Made by a program: the position numbers and the translations under genes
Source: JAUWCW01 sp030609125 [NCBI: Candidatus Rokuibacteriota bacterium]
GTDB lineage: Bacteria; JAUVQV01
Length of the DNA: 7,319 nt
Reading direction: 5' to 3'
NCBI GenBank assembly: GCA_030609125.1
Contig: JAUWCW010000094.1
Span: 1 to 7,319, forward strand
Part shown: piece by piece, positions 327 through 7,258 of the stretch
Layout: every line of letters begins with the position of its first letter
How positions within the stretch are numbered: position 1 is the first letter of the stretch
Notes under the pieces: generated by a model
Told to the model about the DNA's origin: nothing
What the model saw: only the letters and a program-made list of their open reading frames with translations
Databases searched by the model: none

Positions 327-361
327 AAAAAACAGCGGACCCGCCGAGTGGGCCCGCTGTT
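327..361 (-). terminator. Rho-independent terminator of the cold-shock gene
   Basis: On the minus strand an 8-bp stem (AACAGCGG with CCGCTGTT) continues, after one A-C mismatch, into a 3-bp CCC/GGG extension with a 7-nt loop. The stem is followed by a run of six T (positions 332-327). It begins 25 nt beyond the csp stop codon. In the plus direction no T run follows the stem, so it terminates minus-strand transcription only and separates csp from the exported-protein gene at the left edge. Confidence 0.85.
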
Positions 362-386
362 CAATCTGAAGAGGTATGAAAGGCCC

Positions 387-587
387 TTAGACGGGCCGAA
401 CGTTCGACGCCTGGGGTCCCTTGGGACCATCGGTCACTTCAAACTCCACTGCCTGGCCCTCTTCCAGCGACTTGAAACCCTGTCCCTGGATGGCGCTGTA
501 GTGGACGAAAACATCGGGGCCGTCCTCCTGTGAGATGAACCCGAAGCCTTTCTGGTCGTTGAACCATTTCACGTTTCCCTGTGCCAT
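387..587 (-). CDS. Cold-shock domain protein, CspA family
   Basis: A 66-residue single-domain cold-shock protein, the usual length of the family. These proteins bind single-stranded RNA and DNA, melt RNA structure and act in the cytoplasm as RNA chaperones. The protein starts [21 protein letters not shown]1 (KGFGFI) is at residues 13-18 and RNP2 (VFVHYSAI) at 26-33. The nucleic-acid-stacking aromatics Trp8, Phe15, Phe17, Phe27 and His29 are all present. A strong AGGAGG Shine-Dalgarno (597-602) sits 9-10 nt before the ATG. The gene is monocistronic, between the terminator at 327-361 and the promoter at 738-766, and has a leader of about 145 nt. Such a long leader is usual for cold-inducible csp genes, but cold induction itself cannot be seen here. 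Several paralogues are common per genome, so no letter is assigned. Confidence 0.97.
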
Positions 588-731
588 GTGCTACCGCCTC
601 CTTTCCTCGAGAATTGGGCTCTTCCGACTTCTACCCTTGATACTGCGATGGTGCGAAAGGCCCAGAGGAAAAGAATCCTGTTTCTCATGACTTTCCATCC
701 ACCGGAATATCGGGCGTCGAGAACGCCGATT
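588..731 (-). promoter_or_regulatory. Long structured 5' leader of the cold-shock mRNA
   Basis: From the predicted transcription start near 731 to the csp start codon the mRNA has about 145 nt of leader, close in size to the E. coli cspA leader of roughly 160 nt. At its extreme 5' end, positions 730-709 can fold into an 8-bp helix (ATCGGCGT with ACGC-C-CGAT, one bulged C) closed by a TCTCG loop. The AGGAGG site lies at the far end. Thermosensor or stability roles are known for cspA leaders; assigning one here is inference. Confidence 0.5.
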
Positions 732-3312: not shown

Positions 3313-4218
3313 ATGGATGCGAAAATATGCGCGCTTGAAGTCATAGGCCTGAGCAAGTCCTTCGGCCCCCACAAGGTCGTTGACGACCTGGGACTGCGCC
3401 TTCAGCCGGGTGAAATATTCTCGCTTCTCGGACCTAACGGCGCCGGCAAGACCACCACCATGAAGATTCTCTACGGCTCCCTCAAGCCCGACTCGGGAAC
3501 CATCCTCTACGGCGGCAGGGATTTCGTCCGACACCGGCGCAAGGTCAAGCTCACCATAGGCGTCTGCAGCCAGAACGACACCATCGACTACGATCTGAGC
3601 GTCTGCGACAACCTGGAAGTCTTCGGCACCTATTACCACCTGCCCCGGCGGGAAGCGCGCGCCAGGGCGGCAAGGCTGCTCGCCCGGTTAGGTCTGGAGG
3701 GCTACCACCACAGTACGGCCCGGATGCTCTCGGGAGGGCTCAAGCGCAGGCTGCAGATCGCCCGGGCTCTCATCAACAACCCGCGCGTGGTCTTTCTGGA
3801 CGAACCGACGGTGGGCCTCGATCCCCACAGCCGAAGGGAGCTCTGGGACCTGCTGCACCAGCTGCGCAAAGAGGGGACAACTATCTTCCTCACCACCCAT
3901 TACATGGACGAGGCGGAAACCCTCTCCGACCACGTTGTGATCCTCGACCACGGACGTGTCATCGAGGAAGGCAAGCCGGCGGAGATGATCGGCAGGCACT
4001 TCGGCACGTTCGTACTGCAGGTTGCGGAAACACCCCGCATGCAGTCCCTCCTGGAGGCGGAGAAGATCCCCTTCTTCCGCGGCTACGGCCGGCTCACCGT
4101 GTACGCCGGCGGAAAGATCATTGACGGGCTGGCGGCCAGAATCACCGGCGAGGAGCTGGTGCGGCGCAAACCGAACCTGGAGGATCTCTTCATCAAACTG
4201 ACCGGGAAGGGATTCTGA
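3313..4218 (+). CDS. ABC-2 type exporter ATPase, NodI/DrrA-like
   Basis: A 301-residue ATP-binding subunit that powers an export pump from the cytoplasmic face of the membrane. All core motifs are intact: Walker A GPNGAGKTT (40-48), Q-loop Gln87 (GVCSQND), signature LSGGLKRRL (139-147), Walker B VVFLDEP (159-165), D-loop GLDP (168-171) and switch His196 (LTTHYMDEAE). The segment after the Q-loop (NDTIDYDLSVCDNLEVFGTY) resembles NodI-type exporters of lipo-oligosaccharides more than drug or antibiotic exporters. After about residue 225 comes the usual C-terminal regulatory tail, ending PNLEDLFIKLTG. The substrate is unknown; no biosynthetic gene lies beside the pair. The start could also be GTG 3301 (four extra residues); neither has a ribosome site. 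The stop overlaps the permease start by one base (TGATG), indicating translational coupling. Confidence 0.95.
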   Translation: MDAKICALEVIGLSKSFGPHKVVDDLGLRLQPGEIFSLLGPNGAGKTTTMKILYGSLKPDSGTILYGGRDFVRHRRKVKLTIGVCSQNDTIDYDLSVCDNLEVFGTYYHLPRREARARAARLLARLGLEGYHHSTARMLSGGLKRRLQIARALINNPRVVFLDEPTVGLDPHSRRELWDLLHQLRKEGTTIFLTTHYMDEAETLSDHVVILDHGRVIEEGKPAEMIGRHFGTFVLQVAETPRMQSLLEAEKIPFFRGYGRLTVYAGGKIIDGLAARITGEELVRRKPNLEDLFIKLTGKGF

Positions 4219-5024
4219 TGTGGCGCGACCTGGCGGACTGGCGCACCAGGGCCGTCACCCGGCGCAACCTCCTTGTGTACCTGCGCAACTGGAGGTCCGC
4301 TTTCGTGCCTCCCGTGCTGGAGCCGGTGGTCATGTTTCTCGTCTTCGGCATGGGCCTGGGTACTTACGTGGGCTCTCTTCTTTACCAGGGAAGGGAGGTA
4401 AGCTATCTGGAGTACGTGGCTCCCGGCATCCTGACCTACACCTTTTTCACCACCTCCTTCATGGAGTCCCTTTACGGTTCCTTCGTGCGGATGTTCTACC
4501 AGAAGACTTTCGAGGGGATCACGGGGACCGCCGTGGAAAGGGTGAACCTCATCTGGGGGGAAATCCTCTGGGCCTCCTGCAGGGCCACCATGTACGCCGT
4601 CTGCGTCTCCCTGGTGCTGGCGGCCTTTCACCTCCTCGGGCTCGTCTCCCTCTCCCTGGGCACGCTTTTCCTGCTCATACCCGTCGGCGCGGCGGCCACG
4701 GTCGCCTTCAGCAGCTTCGGGCTTCTTTTCACCTCCCGGGTGCCGACCATCGACCACATGAACTACCCGGTTTTTCTCGTGGGGGTCCCCCTCTCACTGA
4801 CCAGCAACACCTTTTTTCCCGTGGACCAGGTTCACCCCCTGGCGGCGGCGCTGGCCCAGTTCAATCCGCTCTATCACCTGAGCCGCATCTTCCGCCACGC
4901 ACTCCTCGGCGGGGGACCGGAGCCGTGGATGCTCGCTTCCCTCCTGGTTATAGCCGCCGCGATCCTGGGCCTCTCCTTCCTGGCCCACCGCTGGATGGAC
5001 AGGCGCCTCGAAAGAGAGTCCTGA
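4218..5024 (+). CDS. ABC-2 type exporter permease, NodJ-like
   Basis: A 268-residue membrane subunit that partners the preceding ATPase. Six hydrophobic segments can be placed at roughly 32-50, 63-84, 118-140, 147-170, 180-202 and 238-257, the normal topology of ABC-2 half transporters. The N-terminal amphipathic stretch (RTRAVTRRNLLVYLRNWR, 9-26) is the usual coupling helix. The family signature before the last segment is clear: NTFFPVDQVHPLAAALAQFN (197-216) followed by PLYHLSRIFRHALLG, close to the FFPxxxLP...NPlyH pattern of NodJ. Length is as expected (NodJ about 260). Translation starts on the ATG that overlaps the ATPase stop. With the ATPase it should form a 2+2 exporter. NodIJ homologues are widespread in non-symbiotic bacteria, so Nod factor export is not implied; an envelope glycolipid or similar is a guess. 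Confidence 0.94.
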   Translation: MWRDLADWRTRAVTRRNLLVYLRNWRSAFVPPVLEPVVMFLVFGMGLGTYVGSLLYQGREVSYLEYVAPGILTYTFFTTSFMESLYGSFVRMFYQKTFEGITGTAVERVNLIWGEILWASCRATMYAVCVSLVLAAFHLLGLVSLSLGTLFLLIPVGAAATVAFSSFGLLFTSRVPTIDHMNYPVFLVGVPLSLTSNTFFPVDQVHPLAAALAQFNPLYHLSRIFRHALLGGGPEPWMLASLLVIAAAILGLSFLAHRWMDRRLERES

Positions 5025-5447: not shown

Positions 5448-5684
5448 TCCTCCATCGCGCGCCGTGTGGCCGAACCGGCCTCCCGGACAAAGAGTTTCGC
5501 CGGGAAGGCCGCCACGGGGCAGATCGCCCCTTTTCTCGCCCTCGCCCTGCCGGCAGGCGTCGTGCCCGGAACGAAGATCGGCAGCCGGCTGAGCCGCCGG
5601 GCCCCGACGCACGTGCTGCGCTACGCCCTCGGGGTGCTAATCGTCGCCGCCTGTGCGAGAATGCTCCTCGATCTCGCAGGATAG
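5448..5684 (+). pseudogene. C-terminal remnant of a TauE/SafE (TSUP) membrane permease
   Basis: About 78 codons remain of what would be a protein of roughly 250 residues. The readable part, SFAGKAATGQIAPFLALALP, continues with a hydrophobic segment, then PGTKIGSRLSRRAPTHVLRY and a last membrane segment ALGVLIVAACARML. This matches the final two helices and the GxxxGxrlxrr..LR linker of the TauE/SafE sulfite/organoanion exporter family. Upstream the frame is closed by tandem TGA-TAG stops (5442-5447), and only about 100 nt separate these from the cytochrome stop, so the first three quarters are missing rather than merely frameshifted. GTG 5466 is an in-frame start codon but has no ribosome site. 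Its end lies 18 nt before selD, suggesting that an intact permease gene once stood directly upstream of selD. The rest of 5338-5447 holds no gene I can support. Confidence 0.6.
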
Positions 5685-5702
5685 AAACGAAAGGAGAAGA
5701 TC

Positions 5703-6752
5703 ATGCTGCCGTTCAAGAAGAAAACATTGATGGGCGTTTCGAAAACCTGCGGGTGAGCTGCCAAAGTCGATCCGACGGCCCTGTCGGATGCGCTGAGAGC
5801 CCTGCCGAGGCCGGAGGACCCGGACCTGCTCGTCGGCTTCGAGACAGCCGACGACGCGGCGGTCTACCGGGTGAGTCCCGAGATCGCCGTCATCTCCACG
5901 GCCGACTACATCACTCCCATAGTCGACGACCCGTTCTGGTTCGGGCGCGTGGCCGCGGCCAACTCCCTCTCCGACATCTGGGCCATGGGAGGAAGGCCCG
6001 TGATGGCCATCAACCTTGTCAATTTCCCCTCCCAGGTCCTGGACCCCGGCATCCTGCGCGACATGCTTCTGGGAGGCGCCGAGAAGGTCTCCGAGGCGGG
6101 CGCCGTCCTTGGGGGAGGACACTCCGTCGACGATCCGGAGCCGAAGTACGGCATGGCGGTGACCGGGGTGGTCCACCCCGACCGGGTCCTGACAAACAGC
6201 GGCGCGAAGCCCGGGGACGCGCTGGTCCTCACCAAACCCCTCGGCACCGGCGTAATCTTCAACGCCAACCGCGCGGGAAAGTTCCCCCCCGAGGCACTCG
6301 AAGAGATTCTTCCCGTGGTGGCCTCACTGAACAAGGGCGCCATGGAGACGGCCCTGAAGTACGACGTTCACGGCATGACGGACATCACGGGCTTCGGTTT
6401 TGCAGGCCACGCCCTCGAGATGGCGGTGCATTCGGGGGTGAGGATGAACATCTCTTTCTCCGCCCTGCCCGTCTACGAGGGTGCGGTGAAGATGTACGCG
6501 TCGGGAGTGAGCACCGGCACAAACGCGGGCAACAGACGCGCCTGCGGAGGCCGTCTCCGGGTGGCGGCCAACCTCAAGAGGGAGCAGAACGAGATCCTCG
6601 TCGATCCCCAGACTTCAGGAGGGCTTCTCATCTCACTTCCCGAGGGGCAGGCAAAAGAGCTCGTGGGCGATCTTCATGCGGCCGGCGTGCCCTGGGCGGC
6701 CCTCATCGGAAGCACAGAAGGCGGCATGCCGGAGATCGTGGTGGAGAGCTAG
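5703..6752 (+). CDS. selD: Selenide, water dikinase (selenophosphate synthase), itself a selenoprotein
   Basis: SelD makes selenophosphate from selenide and ATP, the selenium donor for selenocysteine and 2-selenouridine. The 349-residue frame contains one in-frame TGA (5754-5756) at codon 18, read as selenocysteine: SKTCG-Sec-AAKVDPTALSDA. Sec18 aligns with catalytic Cys17 of E. coli SelD and Lys21 with its essential Lys20; the second cysteine of the E. coli CGCK motif is Ala here. Beyond the TGA the family motifs are all present: FETADDAAVY, STADYITPIVDDPFWFGRVA, NSLSDIWAMGG, VLGGGHSVDDPEPKYG, MTDITGFGFAGHALEMA and DPQTSGGLL. AAGGAG lies 6-7 nt before ATG 5703 and nothing comparable exists downstream of the TGA, so the start is firm. 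A stop-based reading would wrongly begin at GTG 5871 and lose the catalytic site. It follows the permease remnant and converges with the cysteine-rich gene. Confidence 0.95.
5754..5789 (+). promoter_or_regulatory. UGA Sec codon with bacterial SECIS-like hairpin in selD
   Basis: The UGA (5754-5756) is followed, after 13 nt, by a perfect 7-bp stem ATCCGAC (5770-5776) / GTCGGAT (5783-5789) with a 6-nt apical loop GGCCCT. The loop begins with two G and lies 20 nt from the UGA. Known bacterial SECIS elements have a short apical loop with a G among the first two bases at about 16-37 nt from the UGA, so this fits. A shorter lower helix (5765-5768 with 5792-5794, one bulged T at 5767) may extend it. 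SelB charged with Sec-tRNA would bind here. Confidence 0.8.
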
Positions 6753-6781: not shown

Positions 6782-7258
6782 TCATTCGACAATCAGAAGG
6801 GTGAGGCCGCAGTCGGGACACTCGACCTCCGCGGGCCCCACGGTGTGGCCGCACGCCGGGCACTTTCCCTGGCTGATCATTTCCTGCGAAGCCCGTATTT
6901 CCGGGTGCACCTCCGAGAAATAGGCCTCGATTCGCGCATTCGCCTTGCCCGCATCCCTCTCCGACACCAGCAGTTGGCAGCCGGTTCCGCAGCACCCCTT
7001 TCTGCACGAGGGATCAGCGTGAACCCTGCAGGGAATGCCGGAACCGATGAGAACCCCGTGAAGCTCTTCCAGCCACCGCAGTTCACCCTCCCTGACCGCC
7101 ACCGGGTTTTCCAGGGTCTTCTCCGCGCAGAACTTTCTCTCCTCCTCCCGCCTTGCGTTTTCTTCCAGGGAAATCAGGACTGTTCCGCAATCCACGCAGG
7201 TCTCGACGTGGGAAAGATAGTCACACGAGCAGTCCGGACATATTTTCATTTCAGGCAT
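6782..7258 (-). CDS. Cysteine-rich protein with N- and C-terminal zinc ribbons
   Basis: A 158-residue cytoplasmic protein (no signal peptide) with 15 cysteines. The N-terminus (KICPDCSCDYLSHVETCVDC, 5-24) and the C-terminus (CPACGHTV...CPDCGLTLLIVE, 133-158) are each a two-knuckle zinc ribbon. Between them a helical, Glu-rich stretch (31-50) leads into RWLEELHGVLIGSGIPCRVH (61-80), which resembles the 'aexLxxxGIp' fold of small putative signal-transducing (DUF2007-like) domains. That domain carries an inserted cluster CRKGCCGTGC (85-94) just before the strand QLLVSERDAGKANARIEAYF. The cluster could bind metal or a redox cofactor; this is inference. Start: GGAG 6 nt before ATG 7258. It converges with selD, 29 bp from its stop, with no terminator between them. 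I do not recognise a named family. A role with selenium or metals is only suggested by position. Confidence 0.8.
   Translation of the reverse strand: MPEMKICPDCSCDYLSHVETCVDCGTVLISLEENARREEERKFCAEKTLENPVAVREGELRWLEELHGVLIGSGIPCRVHADPSCRKGCCGTGCQLLVSERDAGKANARIEAYFSEVHPEIRASQEMISQGKCPACGHTVGPAEVECPDCGLTLLIVE

Follow-up and report, generated by a model that had tools for sequence, protein, structure and literature searches.

A selD gene with an in-frame UGA, predicted to encode selenocysteine, in a sparsely sampled bacterial order

The window analyzed here is a stretch of 7,319 nucleotides that makes up an entire contig (C159) of a 2.32-Mb draft bacterial genome (376 contigs, 92% complete and 2% contaminated). 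Judging from its sequence, it almost certainly carries an ordinary selenocysteine (Sec)-containing SelD, or selenophosphate synthetase, in which a UGA at the active site is predicted to be read as Sec. This reading establishes where the gene starts and what it encodes, whereas a plain open reading frame (ORF) caller would cut it by 56 residues and lose the active site, and it shows Sec-decoding genes to be present in a sparsely sampled bacterial order.

The selD frame, its start and its product

Positions 5703-6752 of the forward strand hold a SelD frame of 349 residues in the read-through translation, and the sole internal stop is the TGA at 5754-5756. The features of the gene are as follows.

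5691-5696, forward strand: Shine-Dalgarno AAGGAG, with a six-base spacer to ATG 5703 (sequence reading)
5703-6752, forward strand: selD, selenide water dikinase, 349 aa via one UGA (TIGR00476, PF00586 and PF02769, 3u0o)
5754-5756, forward strand: UGA codon 18, predicted to be read as Sec, at the active-site position of E. coli Cys17 (alignment, read-through, comparison of loci)
5763-5765, forward strand: AAA codon 21, a Lys aligned with E. coli Lys20 (3u0o alignment; Lys in 109/109 loci)
5770-5789, forward strand: candidate bSECIS upper hairpin of 8 bp, with apical loop GCCC at 5778-5781 (folding, comparison with locus L042 of a same-order genome)
5871-5873, forward strand: GTG, the first start codon past the UGA and the start given by a plain ORF caller, 293 aa (ORF listing)

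The start is bounded on its 5' side by an in-frame TAG at 5682-5684, and the frame closes at the stop TAG at 6750-6752. The read-through product scores 369.1 bits over residues 10-315 against TIGR00476, the NCBIfam selD equivalog model with a curated cut-off of 125, matches both Pfam AIRS domains (PF00586 and PF02769), and matches E. coli SelD (3u0o) at E=2.6e-69. The active site of a SelD holds Cys or Sec, and in the 3u0o alignment E. coli Cys17 falls on the TGA. It is followed three residues later by K21, and a Lys is present at this position in all 109 loci compared below. We take this Lys, Lys20 in E. coli, to be important to the enzyme. The C17S mutant of E. coli SelD is catalytically inactive, according to the available text of PMC3956282, and a search of the text of PMC7595633 for active-site residues found none.

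Direct reading and the 3u0o alignment bear out an earlier note on this DNA, which had described a Shine-Dalgarno sequence, ATG 5703 and a frame broken by TGA 5754-5756 alone, with Sec on the catalytic Cys17 and a Lys three residues on. The same note held that automatic callers would truncate the gene at GTG 5871. A plain ORF listing does so, but as a general statement this is too strong, because in the RefSeq entry for the Sec-type selD of Peptoclostridium acidaminophilum, our sole comparison of a Sec-type annotation with its TGA, the CDS begins before that codon.

Conservation of the TGA and of the N-terminal codons

Our comparison set was composed of 60 genomes, the genome of the window and its relatives, in which G001 is the one other member of the order and all others are related at the level of the domain only. 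With one other same-order genome among 60, the lineage is therefore sparsely sampled. The SelD of G001 (locus L042) is 70% identical to that of the window, has a TGA at the same codon, and shares with it the motif KKTLMGVS(K/R)TCGUAAK. Over codons 1-56, of which 40/56 residues are identical, dN is 0.20 and dS 0.76 with codon 18 left out (dN/dS about 0.26); for the remaining 293 codons the values are 0.25 and 1.30 (dN/dS 0.19). Judged by these substitution rates, codons 1-56 are under purifying selection, and the TGA is unchanged in L042.

Across the 60 genomes, 37 selD matches exceed the cut-off in 31 genomes, own genome included, and 33 of the 37 contain exactly one TGA. The active-site residue was read in 109 loci besides the window, consisting of 29 of the 36 other above-cut-off matches and 80 kept of 581 related stretches from named genomes; the seven remaining matches had no locus and hence lie outside the 109. 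It is Sec in 76 loci (L042 included), Cys in 33 and a third residue in none. Sec accounts for 25/29 in the 60-genome set (4 Cys) and 51/80 in the related stretches (29 Cys), shares that are no population estimate as the loci were picked by similarity. Sec-type genes make up 19% of SelD genes in reference prokaryotes, always with Sec at the same position, as given in the accessible part of PMC4561486. As a separate observation, G046 and G031 each have a long selD frame that lacks a TGA (open frames of 745 and 744 aa, respectively) in addition to TGA-containing selDs.

The selD of the window could conceivably be a pseudogene, or a Cys codon could have been misassembled as TGA, with a Cys-SelD doing the work. 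The single in-frame stop and a draft broken into 376 contigs are what such an explanation can draw on. Against it, the separate genome G001 likewise carries TGA at this codon, dN/dS is about 0.26 in codons 1-56 and 0.19 in the rest, the TGA is common to 76 of the 109 SelD loci, and no second selD above the cut-off of 125 was found in the 92% complete draft. Three weaker matches to the selD model in this genome reach 72.6, 56.5 and 18.8 bits, far under the cut-off. A Cys-SelD may lie in the 8% of the genome that the draft lacks. We reject a pseudogene or assembly error as very improbable. The weaker selD match on contig C359 was itself tried as a candidate and rejected: HypE scores highest there, followed by ThiL, both under their own cut-offs.

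No more probable is a true start at GTG 5871, which would give a shortened, Sec-free SelD-like kinase. The 293-aa frame does still match both AIRS domains, but it loses the Sec, the Lys and the DDAAVY at residues 50-55 from which the AIRS match starts, L042 conserves codons 1-56, and ATG 5703 has a good Shine-Dalgarno sequence. The downstream start is rejected as well, in favor of a Sec-containing SelD that begins at ATG 5703.

Sec-decoding machinery in the genome

Profile search of the contigs detected selA (593 bits, cut-off 268) and selB (314.5 bits, cut-off 242) adjacent to each other on contig C310, and a tRNA-Sec gene (selC) with anticodon UCA on contig C359 (67.9 bits, gathering 47). 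These are the selA, selB and tRNA-Sec by which a bacterium with selenoproteins is recognized, with selB running off the contig end. A second selenoprotein gene, formate dehydrogenase-N alpha, is located on contig C21 (1428 bits, cut-off 814), with its in-frame TGA within RIUHSATVAALAESCGRGAMTNHW, where U presumably corresponds to the Sec residue of E. coli FdnG. Selenouridine synthase (TIGR03167) was not found in the own genome (G000) or in G001 at E<=0.001. In G001, one TGA lies inside each of three matches, two to formate dehydrogenase (C311 and C332) and one to FlpD (C155), and therefore G001 probably also decodes Sec.

Genome-wide reassignment of UGA to an ordinary amino acid (Trp or Gly, codes 4 and 25) is the least probable explanation and is rejected, since nothing except the in-frame TGA speaks for it, TGA is the true stop of three Pfam-supported window genes (1844-1846, 4216-4218 and 5022-5024), so that a reassigned code fails to explain the selD frame, and the UCA-anticodon tRNA fits the tRNA-Sec model (67.9 bits, gathering 47).

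The claim of the earlier note that selD is a selenoprotein gene is accordingly borne out by the family match, the UGA at the active site, the relatives and the Sec machinery. It had named three findings that would speak against this claim: absence of selA, selB and selC, all of which are in the genome; an intact second selD with Cys, of which the 92% complete draft shows no sign above the cut-off; and codons 1-55 unconserved in relatives, whereas codons 1-56 are conserved in L042.

A candidate bSECIS hairpin

The stretch of 45 bases past the UGA has a folding energy of -16.9 kcal/mol and leaves 21 bases between the UGA and the loop. As stated in the available text of PMC13188914, a bSECIS has an apical loop of 3-9 nt with a G in its first two bases, an upper stem of 4-16 bp, a distance of 16-37 nt from the UGA and an energy of at most -7.5 kcal/mol; the selD hairpin (GCCC, 8 bp, 21 nt, -16.9 kcal/mol) falls within each of these limits as given there. 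Our own, looser hairpin filter is also passed by 12% of synonymous versions of the window selD. In L042 a hairpin lies in the same register, and 7/7 pairs are kept in both sequences (7 of the 8 were tested), with one pair changed on both sides, from A-U to C-G, and another from A-U to G-U. Sliding the helix by one to three columns left 21-50% of cells paired in the two sequences, versus 7/7 in register; a helix shuffle control gave 260 of 500 and is powerless with two sequences.

Synonymous shuffles, which drew codons from the same gene, gave z -1.06 for the window hairpin, with 16% of shuffles equally stable, which alone is not significant, and a strong z of -2.93 for L042. Taken as groups, the 77 Sec-selDs depart from the shuffled expectation with a mean z of -1.47, and the 33 Cys-selDs show no such departure, with a mean z of -0.16 (Mann-Whitney p=4e-6, a value that is too small since the sequences are related). 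The looser filter is passed by 53/77 Sec genes, where 38 are expected, and by 11/33 Cys genes, where 13 are expected. Dinucleotide shuffles of six folded window stretches ranged from z -0.05, for a 61-base stretch, to -2.00, and an Rfam search of the window at E up to 1 returned no match at the selD UGA.

In the route that we propose, ribosomes would initiate at ATG 5703, and SelB on the hairpin just past the UGA would bring Sec-tRNA-Sec. Sec18 and Lys21 of the finished enzyme would then convert selenide and ATP to selenophosphate, to be used by SelA in charging tRNA-Sec. As described in the accessible text of PMC1794560 and PMC13188914, SelB binds a SECIS just past the UGA and delivers Sec-tRNA-Sec, and SelA makes Sec on tRNA-Sec from selenophosphate supplied by SelD. 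Since SelA needs this selenophosphate, a Sec-SelD requires its own product to be made; we infer the same dependence in this organism, where the amount of SelD would be expected to follow selenium supply.

Cys residues near the Sec and neighbors of selD

At window positions 5748-5765 (forward strand) the frame reads C-G-U-A-A-K, so that the Cys sits at -2 relative to the Sec, the usual positions being +2 or -3. Of the 109 loci, L042 alone shares this arrangement with the window. A Cys lies within six residues of the site in 33/33 Cys-SelDs and is absent from 15/76 Sec-SelDs (Fisher p=0.005, uncorrected for relatedness); among groups formed at 65% identity, 14 have a Sec-SelD without a nearby Cys and none has a Cys-SelD without one. 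The presence of a nearby Cys in all Cys-SelDs and its absence from some Sec-SelDs suggests, without proving, that Sec makes the partner Cys dispensable in SelD.

Immediately upstream of selD, a 72-aa frame (5466-5684, forward strand) that ends 18 bases before selD is a C-terminal piece of a TauE/SafE permease. It scores 31.7 bits against PF01925, just under the 32.6 cut-off, and is 43% identical over 61 aa to the gene adjoining selD in Desulfosporosinus (L093). Full-length TauE/SafE homologues directly adjoin selD in 5/109 loci, all of Sec type. They lie downstream in L093 and L083 (same genus) and in L106, upstream on the same strand in L023, and upstream and divergent in L047, the weakest match. 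A literature search for selD with TauE/sulfite exporter permease and selenium found nothing on topic, and the available text of PMC5322559 names YedE, not TauE.

Convergent with selD, a frame at 6782-7258 on the reverse strand reaches a sub-threshold 88 bits (cut-off 130) against NF049953, the NCBIfam model for zinc ribbon-containing (seleno)protein DG, and contains no in-frame TGA. NF049953 has matches in 22/60 genomes at E<=0.001, none above the cut-off, and none in G001. Around the 109 selD loci there is no DG match at E<=0.01 within at most about 1.5 kb on each side for 29 loci and up to 5 kb for 80. It is a doubtful proposition, taken jointly, that the TauE/SafE permease may move selenium for SelD, that the DG relative may share in the process, and that SelD of this lineage may use the Cys of C-G-U instead of the usual +2 Cys; if true, the selD neighborhood hints at unrecognized selenium-handling partners. 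Elsewhere in the window, a cspA thermoregulator match (328-711, reverse strand; 65.1 bits, below the gathering threshold of 78) encloses a frame at 387-587 on the same strand that we take, by eye, to be a cold-shock protein.

Comparison with known systems

Sec-containing SelD has long been described, with 38 reported in the accessible part of a 2006 survey (PMC1794560), in agreement with the earlier note, which had called the class known. The window selD is a further Sec-SelD, in a sparsely sampled bacterial lineage, and the type itself is already known. Its closest counterpart here, the SelD of G001, shares 70% identity, the TGA, the TCGUAAK motif and the hairpin register, but has other neighboring frames within 1.5 kb on each side, none of which matches TauE or the DG zinc-ribbon protein. 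The Sec-SelD of P. acidaminophilum (NZ_CP007453.1) is 46.8% identical over query residues 9-336 and has an in-frame TGA and the GUAAK motif; however, its RAAGU corresponds to TCGU in the window, whose Cys precedes the Sec by two residues. E. coli SelD (3u0o) aligns over residues 13-319 and has the same active-site position and Lys, but carries Cys17 and a second Cys19 at the places of Sec18 and Ala20 in the window, where the nearby Cys is Cys16. Finally, animal SPS2 (SEPHS2) has Sec at the homologous site, although its SECIS is in the 3' UTR (as described for Ciona in the available text of PMC4561486), in contrast to the in-frame candidate in the window selD.
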